The position numbers and the translations under genes are program-made. DNA of 31,211 nt from a virus. The DNA is taken from positions 1 to 31,211 of IMG/VR virus record IMGVR_UViG_3300037674_000248. One strand, 5' to 3'. Below are positions 940 to 29,581 of the stretch, in pieces. Positions within the stretch are counted from its first letter, which is position 1. Each line of letters begins with the position of its first letter. A model generated the notes under the pieces. It ran no database searches. It saw only the letters and a program-made list of their open reading frames with translations, and was not told where the DNA came from.

Positions 940-1237
940 TATTTGGGAGTCCAAAGGAGAGAGTAGAGACTTTCCTATGTGGCAATCTATTGGTTGTAGA
1001 GAATATATTATAGGTAGAACTAACAAGGTTCCTACCCTGGAAGATATTGGTGCAATGATAACCTCACTTCAACATATATTAGAAGGGAGAATTACTCCTT
1101 CGGTTATTGAAGTTATAACAGGTCATGAAGTTTATGAACAAAATAATTTGACACATAATGAAAATTTCCAATTAAAATATGGAGACGCGATTGATTTTCC
1201 CGCAGAAGACATCACCAACATCCAGGTTGAAGAATAG
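908..1237 (+). CDS. Hypothetical protein (109 aa)
   Basis: Not recognised. The ATG at 908 follows GGAG (898-901) with six bases between. The product is soluble and acidic, with a beta-rich start (L-K-V-V-A-C-T-N-I-W), a central T-L-E-D-I-G-A-M-I-T-S-L helix and an acidic end. No catalytic motif is visible. It overlaps both neighbours and belongs to the same run as the cytidylyltransferase and glycosyltransferase genes. Nothing in it supports a function. Confidence 0.65.
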   Translation: MPQLKVVACTNIWESKGESRDFPMWQSIGCREYIIGRTNKVPTLEDIGAMITSLQHILEGRITPSVIEVITGHEVYEQNNLTHNENFQLKYGDAIDFPAEDITNIQVEE

Positions 1238-1949
1238 GTTTACAGCAGGTTATACCTACTACCAAGAGCCGGAGCATTTAGAGAAGCAAATTAAAGTTTG
1301 GCAAACCTGGCCAGATCAAATAGATATATTTATTGTTGATGATGGATCTGAAATATTTGAAGCACACGATATTCTGAAAGAGGTTTGGATACCTGATTCA
1401 GGACCCACCATACAACTGTGGAAATGCACTAGAGACCTAGGGTTCAATTCACATGGTTGTAGAAATTTAATAGCACAATACGCAGAAACAGATTTCATAG
1501 CATTCTTTGATATGGATATGCGTATGCACGCTCCTGATGTCGCTAGATTAAAAAGAAAAAAGTTTGAGGAAGGTAAATTATATTATCATCATGCCTATGT
1601 GGCACCAAAACAAACAATGATGCAACAACCAGGACACAGGAATTGCTTTGTAATAGGTAAGAAAACGTTCTGGAAAGCAGGTGGTTATGATGAATCTTTC
1701 ACAGGACATCACTTTGGTGATAGAGAATTTATAGAAAGAGTTTTGGATACAGGAGCAGATATAACATTTACAGAGACTTCTATTGTTTTAGATAGATTGG
1801 GAAGACATGGAATAGTTAAAGGTGATGAGCCAAAGACAAAATATATAGATGATGAGTTCTTTTATGTTCCTTTAAAAGAATCAGAGGTTAGAAAATTAAA
1901 AGGAACGGTAAAGAAAAGATTAAATTTTCCGTTCATTAAATTATTATAA
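1227..1949 (+). CDS. Glycosyltransferase, GT-A fold (family 2-like)
   Basis: Probable start TTG at 1227 (240 aa), just before the first beta strand (F-T-A-G-Y-T-Y-Y); an ATG at 1179 gives 256 aa but adds a Pro/Thr-rich tail atypical of the fold. Neither start has a clear ribosome binding site. Motifs of GT-A enzymes: I-F-I-V-D-D-G-S (nucleotide-sugar binding), R-D-L-G-F-N-S-H-G-C-R-N, F-F-D-M-D-M-R (the DxD-type metal site), and a later G-G-Y-D-E-S-F-T-G-H-H-F-G-D-R-E-F acceptor-side segment. It would transfer an activated sugar, to virion protein, DNA base or host glycan; which one is unknown. Its stop codon overlaps the TATAAATA box of the next gene, so this is the last gene before the late block. 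Confidence 0.8.
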   Translation: MKNRFTAGYTYYQEPEHLEKQIKVWQTWPDQIDIFIVDDGSEIFEAHDILKEVWIPDSGPTIQLWKCTRDLGFNSHGCRNLIAQYAETDFIAFFDMDMRMHAPDVARLKRKKFEEGKLYYHHAYVAPKQTMMQQPGHRNCFVIGKKTFWKAGGYDESFTGHHFGDREFIERVLDTGADITFTETSIVLDRLGRHGIVKGDEPKTKYIDDEFFYVPLKESEVRKLKGTVKKRLNFPFIKLL

Positions 1950-1952
1950 ATA
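1945..1952 (+). promoter_or_regulatory. T4-type late promoter (TATAAATA)
   Basis: An exact match to the T4 late-promoter box, overlapping the stop codon of the glycosyltransferase gene and ending five bases before the ATG at 1958. In T4 the box spans about -13 to -6, so the predicted transcription start falls on the A of the ATG and the mRNA would have no leader. Late promoters of this kind need the phage sigma factor (gp55) and its coactivators. Confidence 0.65.
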
Positions 1953-1957
1953 CTGTT

Positions 1958-3118
1958 ATGAGATTTACTGAATTTTTAAAAGAAGAGTCGGAAGAAGATA
2001 AGCTCAAACACCTAGAGCATGTCGAAGATCATGTTATCCATGCGGGTAAAAAAGGGTTTGGACACGCCTTCCATACTATAAATGACGTTCATAAAAAACT
2101 TGCAGGTAAAGGCGGAAAGGATACAGATGTTACAATGAAGTATGATGGCAGTCCTGCTGTTATATTTGGTGAACATCCTGAAACAAAGAAGTTCTTTGTA
2201 GCATCCAAATCAGCATTTAATAAGAATCCTAAGATAAACCATACCCATGAGGATATAGAAAAGAATCACGGACATGCACCAGGCTTAGTAGAAAAATTAA
2301 AAGCAGCCTTAGATCACGCACACAAAATTAAGCCACAAGGCATATACCAAGCAGACATTATGCACGCTGGAGATGTCAACCATGATAAAAAGAATAACAG
2401 AGTAGATTTTACACCCAACACAATAACATACCACGCACCCGCTGATTCGGAGCATGGCAAAGCAGCAACTAAAGCTAAGCTAGGGTTAGCAGTACATACA
2501 CAGTACGAAGGTAAGGATATTAAGTCGTTAAAGGCAGTACATAACCCTGATATGAGCCATTTTAAGGGTCATAAAGACGTTCATTTAATGAACACAGCAC
2601 ACGATACATCTACACATAGATACTCCTTAGAGGACAGGAAACAAGTAGATCATCACCTAGAACAGGCTGTAGCACACTTTAAACAAACCCCAGACGAACA
2701 TCACGACACAGTAGGCAAACATTCTGTTGCTTTAAAGACATATATAAACCACGGAGTACGAACAGGAGAAGAACATTCTCACGAAGGATTCGTAAAACAT
2801 CATTCAAATACACATCAAAAGAAAATAGATGGTGTGAAAACTGACGCGGCCAAAGCTCGTCATCAAACAACAAAAGACAACACAATAGATCACATAAATA
2901 AGAATAAAGAGCATTTTGAAGGCCCTATGAATATGCACAAACATCTTCAAGCTGCAAAGAATATTATAACAAATAATTTATCCCAGAAATCACAATGGGG
3001 GCATGAGATATCAGGGGCAGATAGTAAACCAGAAGGTTTTGTAGCTATAAGAAGAGGCAGGCCTTCTAAATTTGTAGATAGAAAAGAATTTAGTGCAGCT
3101 AATTTTAATAAAGGATAA
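1958..3118 (+). CDS. Ligase-like nucleotidyltransferase-fold phage protein, His-rich (DUF6267-like)
   Basis: 386 aa. K-Y-D-G-S at residues 61-65 matches motif I (KxDG) of the ATP/NAD-dependent DNA and RNA ligase/capping-enzyme superfamily, where the Lys takes the AMP. G-I-Y-Q-A-D-I-M (about 127-134) resembles motif III, and E-G-F-V-A-I at 359-364 followed by S-K-F-V-D-R resembles motifs IV/V. The start M-R-F-T-E-F-L is typical of T4-like virion-region genes, and I know the family from marine T4-like phages as DUF6267; its role is undescribed as far as I know. About 43 of 386 residues are His, far above normal. A late promoter lies directly upstream. It could be an active ligase or adenylyltransferase, or a structural protein that kept the fold. 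Confidence 0.7.
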   Translation: MRFTEFLKEESEEDKLKHLEHVEDHVIHAGKKGFGHAFHTINDVHKKLAGKGGKDTDVTMKYDGSPAVIFGEHPETKKFFVASKSAFNKNPKINHTHEDIEKNHGHAPGLVEKLKAALDHAHKIKPQGIYQADIMHAGDVNHDKKNNRVDFTPNTITYHAPADSEHGKAATKAKLGLAVHTQYEGKDIKSLKAVHNPDMSHFKGHKDVHLMNTAHDTSTHRYSLEDRKQVDHHLEQAVAHFKQTPDEHHDTVGKHSVALKTYINHGVRTGEEHSHEGFVKHHSNTHQKKIDGVKTDAAKARHQTTKDNTIDHINKNKEHFEGPMNMHKHLQAAKNIITNNLSQKSQWGHEISGADSKPEGFVAIRRGRPSKFVDRKEFSAANFNKG

Positions 3119-3120
3119 AC

Positions 3121-3231
3121 ATGGGTAAAGGACAGAATAGAGAACGAGGGAATAAAAACAAAAAGAAACCCTCACTAAGCATTAAAGAGAAAAAGGCAAA
3201 GAAGAAAGATAAACGTGGAAAAACCAGATAA
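3121..3231 (+). CDS. Very basic 36-aa peptide
   Basis: ATG at 3121, two bases after the stop of the ligase-like gene, with AAAGGA (3110-3115) as ribosome binding site, and a TAA at 3229-3231. The peptide is almost entirely Lys, Arg, Asn, Ser and Gly (M-G-K-G-Q-N-R-E-R-G at the start, K-K-K-P-S-L-S-I-K in the middle). I know similar tiny basic proteins in marine phages but no function; nucleic-acid binding is a guess from charge. Its last 17 bases overlap the GTG start of the next gene, so the three are probably translationally coupled. Confidence 0.6.
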   Translation: MGKGQNRERGNKNKKKPSLSIKEKKAKKKDKRGKTR

Positions 3232-3844
3232 ACATATAGTATTTTCATACGGAAGGATGAATCCACCTACTGCTGGACATAGCAAAGTCGTAGATAAGGT
3301 TAAGTCACATGCAGATAAGATAGGTGCAAATCATGCTGTAGTAGTTAGCCACAAACAACACCACAAAGATAATCCTTTACACCACGAACACAAAAAAGAT
3401 TTTTTAAAGCACGTGCATCCAGATGTAAATTTTGAAAATTCAACAAAAGAACACCCTTCATTCTTACATCAATTAAAAAAGTTTAATCAGGAAGGACATA
3501 CACACGCAACAATGGTAGTTGGTTCTGATAGAGTAAAAGACTTTAAATCACTAGCTAAAAAATATAATGGAAAGGAATACAATTATAAGAAAATACATAT
3601 ACTTTCAGCAGGCCAAAGAGATCCAGATGCCACAGGGGTGGAAGGCATCAGTGGAACTAAAATGAGAGACCATGCTAGAAACAATGATTATAAATCCTTT
3701 AAATCAGGACTACATTCTAACCACGCAGAAGATCATGCCAAGAAATTATTTAAAGCGACAAGAGAAGGTATGAAATTGAACGAAGATGAAACAGGATACT
3801 ATGATTTTAAAAGATTCCTCCTCTCTGAAGAATTCAAATGCTAA
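3215..3844 (+). CDS. HxGH-type adenylyl/cytidylyltransferase-like protein, His-rich
   Basis: 209 aa from the GTG at 3215; an in-frame start fits because F-S-Y-G-R-M-N-P-P-T-A-G-H (residues 10-22) is the classic first motif (GRFNPPTxGH) of NMN adenylyltransferase-like enzymes. V-V-G-S-D-R at 101-106 and G-I-S-G-T-K-M-R at 144-151 (the ISxTxxR motif) complete the active site. Such enzymes join a nucleotide to a phosphorylated partner (NMN, pantetheine-P, glycerol-P); a role in NAD or RNA metabolism is possible. About 21 of 209 residues are His. It sits directly after the ligase-like gene and shares its late promoter, a pairing I recall from T4-like marine phages. The C-terminus (F-K-R-F-L-L-S-E-E-F) resembles N-termini of virion-region proteins. 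Confidence 0.75.
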   Translation: MEKPDKHIVFSYGRMNPPTAGHSKVVDKVKSHADKIGANHAVVVSHKQHHKDNPLHHEHKKDFLKHVHPDVNFENSTKEHPSFLHQLKKFNQEGHTHATMVVGSDRVKDFKSLAKKYNGKEYNYKKIHILSAGQRDPDATGVEGISGTKMRDHARNNDYKSFKSGLHSNHAEDHAKKLFKATREGMKLNEDETGYYDFKRFLLSEEFKC

Positions 3845-24181: not shown

Positions 24182-25084
24182 ATGATAGTCGTAGATTATA
24201 ATCAAACAGCTATAGGTAATTACATGGCAGAGGTCCGTGGACGTACTGATGTGGAACCTAACGTGCCTATACTCAGACATATGATATTGAATACCATACG
24301 CTCCTACAAGAGACGTTGGGGTAGTGAATATGGAGATATTGTAATAGCCTGTGACAACAGGCACTATTGGAGACGAGAAGCGTTTCCTTATTATAAAGCT
24401 AATAGGAGAACCTCACGAGCAGCCAGTCCAATGGATTGGGGTAGTATATTTGATGCTATTAATATTGTTCGAGATGAGATAGCAGAAGTATTTCCATACC
24501 CTGTTATAGATGTCGACGGTGCAGAGGCAGACGATATAATAGGAACACTAGCTGCATACAGTCAGACACATGGTACAAGTCCTGAGGAAAGTGGCATGTT
24601 GCCATTTGATGAACACATACCAGATCCTTTTCTTATAGTCTCAGGAGATCACGACTTTAAACAATTACAGAAGTGGCCTAATGTTAAACAATGGGCACCA
24701 GCACAAAAGAAGTGGGTTAAGATAAATGAGCCAGCACATCAAGTTCTATTAGAACATATAATCAGAGGTGATAAGGGTGACGGTGTACCTAATATATTAT
24801 CAGCAGATGATGTCTTCATCAAAGGCATACGTCAAAACCCTATTAAAAAGGTTAAACTAACAGAATGGAAGACCCAAAAACCAGAAGAGTTTGTTAATGG
24901 TGCCATGGCACATGGTTATAATCGTAATTCTTTACTAATCGACTTAACCAAAACACCAGAAGACATGAAAGAAGATATTATAAATAGTTATATCACACAA
25001 CGCGGTGGTGATAGAGGTCAGTTATTAAACTATTTTATTAAACATAAAATGAAAGGATTAATTGACGTAATAGATGATTTTTAA
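24182..25084 (+). CDS. rnh: T4 RNase H-type 5'-3' exonuclease/flap endonuclease
   Basis: 300 aa (T4 RNase H: 305). FEN-family metal ligands appear in order: I-V-V-D-Y-N (D4), I-A-C-D-N, D-G-A-E-A-D-D-I-I-G, V-S-G-D-H-D-F, and R-G-D-K-G-D-G-V-P-N (the H3TH/third-metal region). F-P-Y-Y-K-A-N-R-R is the usual segment after the second Asp. It removes RNA primers and flaps behind the lagging strand, cooperating with primase, polymerase and ssDNA-binding protein. AAGGC upstream is a modest ribosome binding site. A TATAAATA at 24979 is inside the gene and probably chance. Confidence 0.92.
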   Translation: MIVVDYNQTAIGNYMAEVRGRTDVEPNVPILRHMILNTIRSYKRRWGSEYGDIVIACDNRHYWRREAFPYYKANRRTSRAASPMDWGSIFDAINIVRDEIAEVFPYPVIDVDGAEADDIIGTLAAYSQTHGTSPEESGMLPFDEHIPDPFLIVSGDHDFKQLQKWPNVKQWAPAQKKWVKINEPAHQVLLEHIIRGDKGDGVPNILSADDVFIKGIRQNPIKKVKLTEWKTQKPEEFVNGAMAHGYNRNSLLIDLTKTPEDMKEDIINSYITQRGGDRGQLLNYFIKHKMKGLIDVIDDF

Positions 25085-25374: not shown

Positions 25375-25905
25375 GTGGCACAGAAATTCAGACAAATCAA
25401 TGAAGCTTTTGACTGGATCTTTGAACCCAGAGGTAAGAAGGCACAAGTAGACAGAATCAAGGAAGTTGCTGCTACTAATCAGACAGTCGTCCCATTTGTA
25501 AGATGGGGTGTTGGAGCTGATCAGCCTGATTGGGGAGTGCCAGAAGGCCATCCAGATAGAACTAAGATAGAAGATGACATACCTGATGGTATGGGTGAAA
25601 CAACACTTACATTAGAGTTTCGTAGAATCAAACAATTTACAGATCCTAATGCTAACATTAAGAACCTTCCTCCTTGGAAACAAGAGATGAATTGGATGAA
25701 TATCTTAGAAGGCGTACATCACAAAGAAGCTGAGTTTTTAACAGCAGTGAAAGATCAGCAATTGATCTCACTCTATCCTAAACTAGAAGGTATTCTAAAG
25801 GATTTAGGCATAACGGATTACGTTAAACCTAAGAAGAAAAAGTATAAAGCTAAAGACGTTTCCAAGAAAATGGAAGAGTTGAAAGCTAAAGTCGATTTTA
25901 CATAA
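25375..25905 (+). CDS. Conserved T4-like phage protein (DUF6433-like, 176 aa)
   Basis: GTG start two bases after the previous stop. V-V-P-F-V-R-W-G-V-G, W-G-V-P-E-G-H-P, then W-M-N-I-L-E-G-V-H-H-K-E-A-E-F-L and a basic K-K-K-K-Y tail match what I recall as DUF6433, a family found near late-transcription and replication genes of T4-like phages. No function is known to me. Its 3' end overlaps the convergent minus-strand gene by eight bases, with no terminator visible. Confidence 0.7.
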   Translation: MAQKFRQINEAFDWIFEPRGKKAQVDRIKEVAATNQTVVPFVRWGVGADQPDWGVPEGHPDRTKIEDDIPDGMGETTLTLEFRRIKQFTDPNANIKNLPPWKQEMNWMNILEGVHHKEAEFLTAVKDQQLISLYPKLEGILKDLGITDYVKPKKKKYKAKDVSKKMEELKAKVDFT

Positions 25906-26428
25906 AAGATTCGGGATCAGGTTTATATGGATCATAGAACCTACCCCATTGCCAACCTTCAGGTCTAGGCTCACTAACAGGAATCGTTGTTGTCTTACCA
26001 TCAGGTGAGACGATCCAACGACGCTTCTCTTTATAAAACGCAGCCTCAGACATTTTAATCCTTGTTTCCTTTGAGTGTGTCCTACGCCACATTGGATTAT
26101 TTTCACCACGTCTAGTGCCTGTCATTGTCCTTGATGTCTTCTCTCTGTGTTCAGGAGAGACACCATGTATTCTACTAGGGTGATTGTCGCCTAGTTTTGC
26201 TTGTCTTATTCTTTCTAATCCTTCTGGTGTATGTTTCTTTGTACGATCTCGAGCACTATCTTTAACAACAGGCAAGCCTAAGTGTAAGGCATGCTCTCTA
26301 ATAGCTTCTATTTGTGAAAAACGTCTGATTAAATCACGAGGCTTGGGAACATCTTGTACATGATTGTTGTCAACGATATACAATTCACCGCCATGATTAA
26401 ACAAAAAGAATAAACTAGCTCTCACCAT
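25898..26428 (-). CDS. NUMOD3-type DNA-binding protein, homing-endonuclease-like
   Basis: 176 aa, last gene of the leftward unit, overlapping the SGNH-like gene by 14 bases. G-E-N-N-P-M-W-R-R-T-H-S-K-E-T-R-I-K-M-S-E-A-A is the NUMOD3 pattern (G-x-N-P-x-x-G/R-x-x-H-S-x-E-T) used by GIY-YIG and HNH homing endonucleases to bind DNA; one or two weaker copies precede it (H-T-P-E-G-L-E-R-I-R-Q-A-K-L-G-D-N-H-P). The C-terminal R-W-I-V-S-P-D-G-K-T-T, P-E-G-W-Q-W-G-R also recalls such proteins. No GIY-YIG or HNH catalytic core is seen, so it may be a relic, a regulator or a new nuclease type. Confidence 0.65.
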   Translation of the reverse strand: MVRASLFFLFNHGGELYIVDNNHVQDVPKPRDLIRRFSQIEAIREHALHLGLPVVKDSARDRTKKHTPEGLERIRQAKLGDNHPSRIHGVSPEHREKTSRTMTGTRRGENNPMWRRTHSKETRIKMSEAAFYKEKRRWIVSPDGKTTTIPVSEPRPEGWQWGRFYDPYKPDPESFM

Positions 26429-27329
26429 AACCTAAGTCCACATTATAATTTTCGTTGTTATATGCTTTTACAAAGAGTGGCGCAACATTTTCCCTATACT
26501 GCTTAGGACCTGGGTGCATCATATCCCTAGCTATTTCAGCATTATCTGTCTTTGATTGTGTGAAGATAAGCTGTGAGCCTCGAAGCAACTCTTTTGAGTC
26601 TTCATTGTTCATTGTGGCGCCCCTTGAAAACTGTATTAGTCTGCTGTCTTTACATAACCAGCTTATGGCATCCAAATAGGCCATTTTGTATATATCTGCT
26701 TCACGTTTTGATATTTGCATCTTCCAATACTCATAGTATTTCTTATCCCAACCTGTCTCCGAATGCCAATGTCCTATCTGCATTGCTGCATCTCCATACT
26801 CCTCGCGATGTTCTCCTTCTTCATCAGGCCACAATTCCTTTCTATTTGGATCTGGAACGTAGAACATTACTGCCTTGGGCTTTATAACAGGTAACCACAT
26901 TTTAGCAACACGATAAGCAGACTGAATACCTGTGCCTGGTTGTCCTAAATTTATACAGTCGAGGCCTAGCTCTTTAGATACATAATAAGGCCATGTTTGT
27001 TCGTAATTAACACCCACACCCATCGTTAAACTGCACCCTAGAAATACTATTGAATTTGGATTCTCAACGAAGTCTTCATCATGTCTGAAACCCCACTGAT
27101 TAAATCTATAACTGACATTGTCCTCGGTCCAACCTAACTCATTACTTTCTTTTTGCTTACTCCCATACTGAGCTCTATTATCAGAAGGGCACCACTTCTG
27201 TGTCCAACCATTAGATAATTCTTGTACTTCAACATCGTCTGGCTCACCAGAGCTTGTTCGGTGGATGTCGCTATATTTACGTCCGGGTCTGTATTTGTGG
27301 CAGTACCCGTATTTGTATGCTGGATCCAT
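26415..27329 (-). CDS. SGNH/GDSL-hydrolase-like protein (304 aa)
   Basis: I-V-F-L-G-C-S-L-T-M-G (94-104) gives the block I nucleophile S100, N-L-G-Q-P-G-T-G (127-134) resembles the block II Gly region, and D269-M-M-H272-P-G matches the D-x-x-H of block V. The block III Asn is not certain. SGNH enzymes remove acyl or other ester groups from lipids and glycans. Starts one base after the previous gene's stop. A Trp/Tyr-rich N-terminal 90 residues precede the fold. Substrate unknown; no signal peptide, so it acts in the cytoplasm or in the virion. Confidence 0.7.
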   Translation of the reverse strand: MDPAYKYGYCHKYRPGRKYSDIHRTSSGEPDDVEVQELSNGWTQKWCPSDNRAQYGSKQKESNELGWTEDNVSYRFNQWGFRHDEDFVENPNSIVFLGCSLTMGVGVNYEQTWPYYVSKELGLDCINLGQPGTGIQSAYRVAKMWLPVIKPKAVMFYVPDPNRKELWPDEEGEHREEYGDAAMQIGHWHSETGWDKKYYEYWKMQISKREADIYKMAYLDAISWLCKDSRLIQFSRGATMNNEDSKELLRGSQLIFTQSKTDNAEIARDMMHPGPKQYRENVAPLFVKAYNNENYNVDLGYGES

Positions 27330-27330
27330 A

Positions 27331-28725
27331 TTAATCTATTTCAACAGCTTGTGCAAACAGTACCGTAAATCCTTCTTGTTTTTCAAAAACATTACGATAG
27401 TATGGTGTGCCGTCAGCGCTTCGCTCTCCACGTTTTACTCTTATCTCTATCAGTGGCATTTTGGTAGTTAGTTTAGATCCTTGTCCGAAGATCATTAGCT
27501 TAGGCAAATTCTCTTTTACCACCTTGTTACCAACCTTTTGTGCCTCTGCTACATTTAGTTCTGATACAAGTTCTAAACCTTTAAAGGCCTTCTCTAAGTT
27601 ACTTGCATCATATTGAATTGCCTGATCTCCTTTTAAGTCTACGAGTTTGAAACCTTCTTCACGTTTTGAGAAATGATATTGTACAAAGCTACTGAACGCG
27701 TTTCTACCTTTTGATGTTAGTAGAGCTTTAGGCACTTTCGGTGCCACTTCCTCATAGACTGCCATTATGGCATTAGCGGTATCGTTGAAATGTTCTATTC
27801 CTCCCTTAAGCTTATCATAAGACTGCTGAGTCATATTAACATCAATACCAAATGAGTCTTTCCAGAGTTTCTTTTGTACATCTAAGGTTGTGCCTCCCAT
27901 TTGGCCAAATTGTTTTACACCATCTACTTTAAGTGATATCTTTAGGAAATCAGGCCCTGATAAATCACCAGCATGGTCTGTGACTTGTACTCTAACATCT
28001 ACCTTTGTTCCTTTTTGATCTGTTTCGCCGTCTGATAGTACAATGATACTATTTTTAACACCATTGCCCCACACTTCTGCAACCAGATCTACTACATTGA
28101 CTGAGTTAGCATATTTGATGGAAGCCTCTACAATTTGACTCCACATAGGCCATAGCTTGGGGTTTTTGACAGCTCGCCAATGAGGCTCGCCTATTTGATA
28201 TTTAAAGACGAGATCATCCTTTATCGTCGTTCCCTTATTAGGAGACTCCAACGTGATAGTGTTATTATTGATTTTACACAGCTCCATTATTGCTTTAATC
28301 TCTGTCTCACCGATCCTGGTATGGTTGCCACACCCTGCTTTAAAGCGAGCTACTATAGCAGCAGAGAATAATATTTCTGCTATGTTTCCTCTATTGTAGT
28401 CCTTTCTTCCATTAAGTTGATACTCCGGTGTTTTCTCTAACTTGCCAAGAGGCACCAGCTCTTCATCTTGTAGTATTAATTGGTTATAAGATCCAGACTG
28501 GATAAGTCTTACCAAAGTCTGGCCAGGGTTTGCATTACTCATTAATGAGGTAATTGATGTTGCTTTAGCTGTTTTTGCGTTTTGTCCTGTGACTACTCCA
28601 ATGATAATCTGATCAGTTGCAAACCCACTTAAGGAATGTCCTTCGTTATTAGAACATTTGTCTAGAAATACTCCTGGCCTGAACCCAGCATATTTAAGAA
28701 AGTCTGCTTTTGCCATTGTTGCCAT
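27331..28725 (-). CDS. Unknown 464-aa protein, possible PD-(D/E)XK nuclease
   Basis: First gene of the leftward unit, with AAGGAGAG before the ATG and a near-consensus promoter. No family recognised. R-G-N-I-A-E-I-L-F-S-A-A-I (112-124), D243 in T-K-V-D-V-R-V-Q-V, and L-K-I-S-L-K-V-D-G (261-269) followed by K-Q-F-G-Q-M-G-G are the kind of E...D...x-x-K array seen in restriction-type endonucleases, where an S-L-K-x-G-x-x-Q-F-G segment follows the catalytic Lys. This is a suggestion from pattern, not homology. C-terminal regions are beta-rich (M-P-L-I-E-I-R-V-K-R-G-E-R). No membrane segments. Alternative: a structural or unrelated accessory protein. Confidence 0.55.
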   Translation of the reverse strand: MATMAKADFLKYAGFRPGVFLDKCSNNEGHSLSGFATDQIIIGVVTGQNAKTAKATSITSLMSNANPGQTLVRLIQSGSYNQLILQDEELVPLGKLEKTPEYQLNGRKDYNRGNIAEILFSAAIVARFKAGCGNHTRIGETEIKAIMELCKINNNTITLESPNKGTTIKDDLVFKYQIGEPHWRAVKNPKLWPMWSQIVEASIKYANSVNVVDLVAEVWGNGVKNSIIVLSDGETDQKGTKVDVRVQVTDHAGDLSGPDFLKISLKVDGVKQFGQMGGTTLDVQKKLWKDSFGIDVNMTQQSYDKLKGGIEHFNDTANAIMAVYEEVAPKVPKALLTSKGRNAFSSFVQYHFSKREEGFKLVDLKGDQAIQYDASNLEKAFKGLELVSELNVAEAQKVGNKVVKENLPKLMIFGQGSKLTTKMPLIEIRVKRGERSADGTPYYRNVFEKQEGFTVLFAQAVEID

Positions 28726-28748
28726 ATTATCTCTCCTTGTTTATATAC

Positions 28749-28777
28749 ATTATGAAGCCTGCACTACCAATTGTCAA
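28749..28777 (-). promoter_or_regulatory. Near-consensus sigma-70 promoter, leftward
   Basis: On the minus strand TTGACA (28777-28772, perfect), 17-base spacer, CATAAT (28754-28749). A start near 28742 gives a leader of about 17 bases with AAGGAGAG before the ATG at 28725. It is the closest match to the host consensus in the window and drives the three-gene leftward module. Confidence 0.8.
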
Positions 28778-28788
28778 GCCCTTTACTG

Positions 28789-28796
28789 TATTTATA
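28789..28796 (-). promoter_or_regulatory. Possible late promoter, leftward (TATAAATA)
   Basis: TATTTATA on the plus strand reads TATAAATA on the minus strand. With the plus-strand box at 28798 it forms a near-palindrome, so one of the two may be a by-product. If used, its transcript would start near 28783 and run through the sigma-70 promoter. Confidence 0.3.
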
Positions 28797-28797
28797 T

Positions 28798-28805
28798 TAT
28801 AAATA
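28798..28805 (+). promoter_or_regulatory. T4-type late promoter (TATAAATA) for the lipase
   Basis: Exact match, intergenic, with five bases to the ATG at 28811, the same geometry as at 1945. The predicted start lies on the ATG; if the downstream ATG at 28823 is the true start, the leader is 12 bases without a ribosome binding site. Confidence 0.6.
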
Positions 28806-28810
28806 ATAAC

Positions 28811-29581
28811 ATGATTAGTAGTATGTCAGAAAAGGAGAGACGTGTTCTCTTTGCCAAATTAGCACAATACGCCTACTATCCAGAGAAAACAGGAGCTAAG
28901 TCCGGTAAACGGAAAGGGTTCACTAAGTATAATTTCTTTGATATAGACGGTGCCCAATGCTATGTGTTCTATAATAAGAATGATATTGTCATTTCATGTA
29001 GAGGAACACAAAAAGATCATGGTGCCATGAATGATATCATAGCTGACTTACAAGTTTTTAAATCCGACTCTGTCTCTGGTAATAAAATCCACCAGGGTTT
29101 CAAGGAAGAAGTAGATAAGATTTATGATCTTGTAGAATCGCTTGTTGATAAAATAACACATGGTAAGAAGATATGGGCAACAGGCCACAGTTTGGGCGGG
29201 GCAATGGCTACTATTCTAGCTCAACGATTAGAGTTCACGGGTGGACATGATGTCGACACATTGTACACCTATGGTTCACCTCGAGCAGGCGGACCTCAAT
29301 TTAGAGCATGGTGTGATAAACATCTTAATCATCAGAGATTCGTTAATAATAATGACGTGGTACCTTGTTTGCCTAGTTGGATATGGTACAGGCACACAGG
29401 TGACTGCTATTATATTAAATCAACTGGAGAGATTACTCGCTTAGGCCGTTGGTCTACAGAGCGTGTAAGAGATAAAGGTTGGTCCTTATTAAAGACGATA
29501 TTGAAGGGTCGATTGGATTTTGTGGCTGATCATAATATTAAAGATTACATTCAGCATCTAGAAAATGATAACCAAAACTAA
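28811..29581 (+). CDS. Class 3 lipase (alpha/beta hydrolase)
   Basis: 256 aa from ATG 28811, or 252 from 28823; a further upstream in-frame ATG at 28658 lies inside the divergent gene and is unlikely. W-A-T-G-H-S-L-G-G-A (122-131) carries the nucleophile S127; N-N-N-D-V-V-P (179-185) gives D182, and A-D-H-N-I (239-243) gives H241, the Lipase_3 triad. Y-G-S-P-R-A-G (154-160) is also typical. It would cleave ester bonds of glycerolipids. There is no signal peptide. With a late promoter and a small membrane protein next, a part in lysis or virion entry is possible. Confidence 0.85.
   Translation: MISSMSEKERRVLFAKLAQYAYYPEKTGAKSGKRKGFTKYNFFDIDGAQCYVFYNKNDIVISCRGTQKDHGAMNDIIADLQVFKSDSVSGNKIHQGFKEEVDKIYDLVESLVDKITHGKKIWATGHSLGGAMATILAQRLEFTGGHDVDTLYTYGSPRAGGPQFRAWCDKHLNHQRFVNNNDVVPCLPSWIWYRHTGDCYYIKSTGEITRLGRWSTERVRDKGWSLLKTILKGRLDFVADHNIKDYIQHLENDNQN

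Follow-up and report, generated by a model that had tools for sequence, protein, structure and literature searches.

Since the genomes of marine T4-like phages proved to be without denA, ndd and denB, it has been an open question by what means these viruses degrade the DNA of their hosts (PMC2984593). A leftward cluster of three genes in an uncultured T4-like phage, judged marine by its relatives, raises this question again, together with that of what the three genes have to do with one another. The window analysed is the whole of a 31.2-kb IMG/VR virus record (31,211 bases); its primase is ~40% identical to primases of T4-group pelagi-, methylo- and cyanophages, and genes for ribonucleotide reductase, RNase H and DUF6267 are present. 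A preliminary description had taken the three genes for one functional unit, or for cargo travelling with a homing-type gene. The features are listed below by window position.

25375–25905, plus strand: DUF6433 gene (context), downstream of rnh (24182–25084)
25898–26428, minus strand: gene of the 176-aa NUMOD3 protein, with predicted DNA-binding modules and without a recognised nuclease domain
26415–27329, minus strand: gene of the 304-aa SGNH-like hydrolase, an optional insert between the nuclease and NUMOD3 genes
27331–28725, minus strand: gene of the 464-aa probable DNA nuclease, here called family A, PHROG 3560/33928 (ORF call, family search, alignment, model)
27928–27936, minus strand: codons of S264-L265-K266, strand 261–267 (S264 and K266 invariant; strand from the model)
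27997–27999, minus strand: codon of D243, start of strand 244–248, TKVDV motif (invariant in 54 relatives; strand from the model)
28375–28377, minus strand: codon of E117, helix 112–130, NxGxxxE motif (invariant in 54 relatives; helix from the model)
28733–28738, minus strand: ribosome-binding site AAGGAG, ahead of the ATG of the nuclease gene (from sequence)
28749–28777, minus strand: sigma70-type promoter TTGACA-N17-CATAAT (11/12 match, best promoter-like site of the region)
28789–28796, minus strand: TATAAATA, T4-late-promoter-like, facing the nuclease gene (kept in the nearest relative, L002)
28798–28805, plus strand: TATAAATA, T4-late-promoter-like, facing the divergent lipase gene
28811–29581, plus strand: class 3 lipase gene (context), divergent from the nuclease gene

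The layout given in the preliminary description proved right to the base: the genes for the 464-aa, SGNH-like and NUMOD3 proteins run leftward behind the 11/12 promoter and converge on the DUF6433 gene. The SGNH gene starts (27329) one base after the nuclease stop (27331), the SGNH and NUMOD3 genes overlap by 14 bases, and the NUMOD3 and DUF6433 genes meet tail to tail in the 8-base overlap that had been described. The three were also correctly named as the only leftward genes, no other minus-strand ORF of more than 126 aa being present in the whole window. In most linked relatives the position of the lipase gene is taken by a DUF1353 gene. All three genes look coding, since dN/dS against L002 was 0.48 for the nuclease, 0.32 for the SGNH and 0.08 for the NUMOD3 gene. 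In L002 (8843–10451), a 165-aa gene and a 378-aa radical SAM/SPASM gene lie between the NUMOD3 and DUF6433 genes; the pair is likewise found in many linked relatives and is absent from the window.

The end of the sigma70-type promoter lies 23 bases from the nuclease ATG. Promoter-like sites in the region numbered 13 vs 11.1 in shuffles, a total not above chance. TTGAC[A/T] was found upstream of the nuclease gene in 11 of the 16 loci compared, and the sigma70-type promoter is missing in L002. The nuclease/lipase intergenic region holds one TATAAATA box in each direction, out of 7 in the window (chance expectation 4.1).

The 464-aa protein matched PHROG 3560 (E 2.8e-23) and PHROG 33928 (E 2.6e-13), both of unknown function, and its relatives were found in Synechococcus and Desulfovibrio phages. 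From IMG/VR, 80 nuclease loci were recovered; a scan of genome contigs gave no bacterial relatives, and PADLOC models matched neither the nuclease nor the SGNH protein. Among 54 relatives, aligned down to 26% identity, G113, E117, D243, S264, K266, Q272 and Q275 were invariant, among others, so that the nuclease-like array suspected earlier from E117, D243 and K266 held on inspection. The AlphaFold2 model (pLDDT 89.8, pTM 0.85) has the order helix(E117)-strand-strand(D243)-strand(S264-x-K266)-strand-helix. Foldseek searches with this model retrieved no resembling solved structure, no PD-(D/E)xK enzyme and no virion protein, a match to the last being what the preliminary description had wished to see checked; strong matches were uncharacterised phage proteins only. 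A sequence-profile search of Pfam and PDB likewise yielded no PD-(D/E)xK member. Between window (27331–28725) and L002 (6001–7395), synonymous divergence of the nuclease gene was 0.16 vs 0.59–0.82 in its neighbours, which, with the high dN/dS, suggests that lineages exchanged the gene recently and that the protein changes fast. Downstream of the nuclease gene in relatives (L025–L086), an Acb1 anti-CBASS homologue and a TET-associated glycosyltransferase were each encountered a single time.

The PD-(D/E)xK superfamily includes Holliday resolvases, MutH, lambda exonuclease and many restriction enzymes. The 464-aa protein resembles these in its helix(E), strand, strand(D), strand(xK), helix order and its invariant E, D and K; a conserved D opens core strand 2 and a K lies in strand 3 (D243, K266), and the element order of the model fits the alpha-beta-beta-beta-alpha-beta core, with no solved member retrieved. 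It differs in the third motif, where S replaces D/E: two residues before the lysine there is no acidic residue (S264-L-K266 here, S-x-K in the other slot families treated below), the acidic residue being supplied instead by the preceding helix (E117). It differs further in a long insert between the helix and the first core strand, and in retrieving no member by Foldseek or profile. On sequence and model the protein may thus be said to work like a PD-(D/E)xK enzyme; superfamily membership is not claimed, because no solved structure resembles the model and the strong matches are confined to uncharacterised phage proteins. No report of a PD-(D/E)xK nuclease in cyanophages was found in the literature covered.

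The known genes closest to the nuclease are those of PHROG 3560/33928 in Synechococcus phages ACG-2014f, S-RIM8, Syn19 and Syn2, which belong to the same family by sequence and have the same invariant residues; they differ in being annotated as hypothetical only and in having no NUMOD3 gene beside them, their place being on the core strand with mazG on one side and DUF6267 or Dam on the other. In ACG-2014f (L001 5053–5952) a Dam-type methyltransferase gene directly follows the nuclease gene. A restriction-modification pair was considered and rejected, as in S-RIM8, Syn19 and Syn2 it is DUF6267 that follows, so that the pairing with Dam is not general. To T4 DenA and DenB the likeness lies in the proposed role only; family searches with the 464-aa protein matched neither.

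That the 176-aa protein carries NUMOD3 was confirmed by Pfam (27.3 bits in the window, 50.2 bits in L002; cut-off 20.4). Outside this stretch its N-terminal part is conserved, and its C-terminal part shows W..P.GW.WGR. No GIY-YIG, HNH or other catalytic domain was detected in it by Pfam, NCBIfam or Foldseek, and its structure model (pTM 0.37) matched other structures only weakly, through a small MbtH-like sheet. With I-TevI and T4-like homing endonucleases it has the NUMOD3 module in common; it also matches the DNA-binding domain of I-TevI (1i3j, E 0.057) and a PADLOC homing endonuclease model, both weakly. It differs from these enzymes in that no GIY-YIG or HNH domain was found, in its fixed genomic position, and in that the full-length form was absent from 50,697 phage records. 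Relatives of the gene were found in 71 loci, nearly all adjoining DUF6433 and rnh and mostly facing them. At this locus ~70 uncultured contigs carry it, and in most of them the nuclease gene is absent. Mobility, in the form of varied sites among close relatives, was not seen, the rnh/DUF6433 neighbourhood being the same in nearly all loci. The earlier idea of a homing-type element found no support, given the lack of a catalytic domain and the near-constant neighbours, and the protein is best seen, from its sequence, as a predicted resident DNA-binding protein. In L134–L136 a same-strand gene for a 306-aa protein comes before the NUMOD3 gene (L134 5084–6004).

The SGNH-like call rests on motifs: the 304-aa protein has GCSLT and DxxHPG, and four homologues have GCS(L/I)T (block I Ser) and D(M/L)(M/V/I)HPG (block V Asp-x-x-His). 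While the motifs agree with the preliminary call, family matches stayed below curated cut-offs (Pfam DUF6473, 19.1 vs 27 bits; NCBIfam GDSL, 13.7 vs 325). The gene lies between the nuclease and NUMOD3 genes in 4 of 15 non-redundant linked nucleases (window, L002, L100, L103). Between window and L002, nucleotide identity is ~90% in the nuclease gene, falls to 62% just inside the SGNH gene and is 81–93% in the NUMOD3 gene. Going by these sequences, the SGNH gene is an optional insert that changes fast.

The nuclease gene stands upstream of the NUMOD3 gene in one NUMOD3 clade only (17 rows, support 100/97), and the NUMOD3-linked nucleases in turn form one clade (support 96/99). With one clade on each side, the two genes were most simply joined once, the nuclease gene coming to a resident NUMOD3 gene, and have probably stayed together since. 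Between them there is nothing (often a one-base TAATG overlap), a 175-aa gene or the SGNH gene; no fusion of the two was found among 54 nucleases. The module described as one block thus held for the nuclease-NUMOD3 linkage, which is stable, and failed for SGNH, which most relatives lack. Most nuclease relatives are without NUMOD3 and lie elsewhere on the core strand among core replication genes. L101 and L102 have, where the nuclease would stand, a 418-aa protein (family B) that looks unrelated to it and has E...TDVTV...LSLK motifs of its own. An upstream ORF in L104 was considered as a nuclease remnant and rejected.

Relatives of the 418-aa protein occur in S-CAM1, S-RSM4, S-RIM44 and other cyanophages between mazG and DUF6267 or cytidylyltransferase, that is, in a slot of the order gp41-mazG-X-DUF6267. 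Family A takes the same mazG-DUF6267 slot in S-RIM8, Syn19 and Syn2, and in ACG-2014f it lies between mazG and the Dam gene, which cytidylyltransferase follows. Both families have N-x-G-xxx-E, T-x-D and L-S-x-K motifs, and a profile-profile comparison aligned them in register over all three, weakly (E 0.009); starting from a single sequence, no relation of family B to A2 was detected. By Foldseek the window model matched a 407-aa protein of S-CAM1 (E 5.6e-9), which has the same length as the slot gene SXBG_00153, a correspondence by length alone.

Fourteen further cyanophage slots each held a hypothetical protein of 259–576 aa. By BLAST, 22 sampled slot proteins fell into six clusters, the largest with an invariant W-x-P-x-D ... 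S-L-K; no Pfam family scored above cut-off in the ten slot proteins scanned. A strict slot pattern, D[ILVMF]...[VILMY]S[LVAIM]K, chosen after the sequences were seen, was present in 20 of the 22 (21 counting S-E7, with DIW...GFSLK) and in 42 of 431 long control ORFs. Counted by family, it occurred in 5 of 6 slot families vs 5 of 50 control families (Fisher p 3.6e-4, for a post hoc pattern). At least five sequence-unrelated slot proteins carry D...S-x-K (L160 3611–4834, L165 2166–3314, L167 2035–3432, L168 2023–3480 and L170 1755–3389, among others). The slot protein of P-TIM40 (259 aa, L175 2663–3442) is without the signature, either through loss or as a member of another family. Since the other slot families gave no significant score against the A1, A2 and A4 profiles, no claim is made that they descend from the same ancestor as family A. 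The usual neighbours of the nuclease and of the slot are replication and nucleotide enzymes (gp41, UvsX, MazG). In four contigs of the window's lineage and the outgroup, no motif-bearing protein was found after gp41. In the window (1179–3844) the gene upstream of DUF6267 codes for a 256-aa protein, glycosyltransferase-like by eye, and a cytidylyltransferase-like gene follows; this slot is without a nuclease.

On the best reading of these results, the nuclease belongs to a diverse set of interchangeable nuclease-like proteins, with E in a helix, D before a strand and S-x-K in the next. We propose, at about even probability, that the cluster consists of a probable DNA nuclease joined to a resident NUMOD3 gene and an optional SGNH gene, and that the nuclease acts early, through E117, D243 and K266, on non-self DNA, likeliest the host chromosome. 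The nuclease gene would have joined the NUMOD3 gene in an ancestor of this T4-like lineage, T4-like marine phages otherwise keeping such nuclease-like proteins among replication and nucleotide genes. Transcription would probably be early, from the nuclease gene's own sigma70-type promoter, and a metal-dependent active site of the three residues would cut DNA, feeding the nucleotide pool. The enzyme may so stand in for T4 DenA and DenB; breakdown of host DNA is the likeliest role in view of the nucleotide and replication neighbours and of the absence of denA, ndd and denB from marine T4-like phages (PMC2984593). Whether the NUMOD3 protein helps to direct the nuclease is judged differently from the lasting linkage, which speaks for it, and from the independent occurrence of both genes, which speaks against. 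Against the proposal as a whole count the S in place of D/E in the third motif, the failure of Foldseek and profiles to retrieve a solved or Pfam PD-(D/E)xK enzyme, the post hoc slot pattern with the signature-less P-TIM40 protein, and the lack of the sigma70-type promoter in L002.

The tight pairing would also suit a two-part site-directed endonuclease, a split homing-like or phage-exclusion enzyme in which the NUMOD3 protein brings a separate nuclease to its DNA sites: the genes are close in every linked lineage, commonly with the TAATG overlap, the NUMOD3 protein has binding modules and no recognised nuclease domain, and family B, another probable nuclease, takes the place of a missing family A. 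We consider this fairly unlikely, as most contigs have the NUMOD3 gene by itself and the nuclease is found in other places without it, the SGNH or 175-aa gene can separate the pair, and neither a fusion among the 54 nucleases nor a sign of mobility was found. Neighbours such as gp41, UvsX and MazG, and the position next to rnh in linked phages, are what a replisome nuclease for recombination or repair (resolvase-like or end-processing) would show; extreme divergence and the swapping of unrelated families in one slot are unusual for a replisome part, and such a role in place of host-DNA degradation appears decidedly unlikely.

It is very improbable that the 464-aa protein is no enzyme at all and is a virion-associated or other DNA-binding protein, with its conserved residues serving some other purpose. 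The lack of a structural match to any solved nuclease fits that possibility, as does virion proteomics of S-SM1, which detected a putative cytidylyltransferase, encoded by a gene of a kind found in the neighbourhood (PMC3037559); the model matched no virion protein, and the D and S-x-K pattern is common to unrelated families in the same slot. That the three genes form one functional system, as first supposed from the compact junctions and single promoter, is extremely unlikely in spite of the trio recurring in L002, L100 and L103: SGNH is missing from most linked lineages and diverges abruptly (62% vs 90%), and the histories of all three genes are separate, NUMOD3 and nuclease genes being mostly found apart.

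Returning to the proposed host-DNA nuclease, what is new is a likely nuclease family, along with a slot in which T4-like marine phages carry one or another of several interchangeable nuclease-like proteins. A wider extension, which we regard as fairly improbable, is that each such phage has one 'self-sparing' nuclease, drawn from unrelated or deeply diverged families that swap in the slot or beside NUMOD3. Families would replace one another under the need to cut the DNA of hosts or rival phages without harming the phage's own genome; phage competition would drive the diversity, and NUMOD3 would set the cut sites in the present lineage. The commonly filled, hypervariable slot beside mazG and gp41 offers a direct candidate for the enzyme of host-DNA degradation, one that could be tested in isolates, among them Syn19, S-RIM8 and S-CAM1, with no need of the uncultured virus itself. 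Phage-phage exclusion could also be sought at this slot, should its nucleases prove to differ in specificity.
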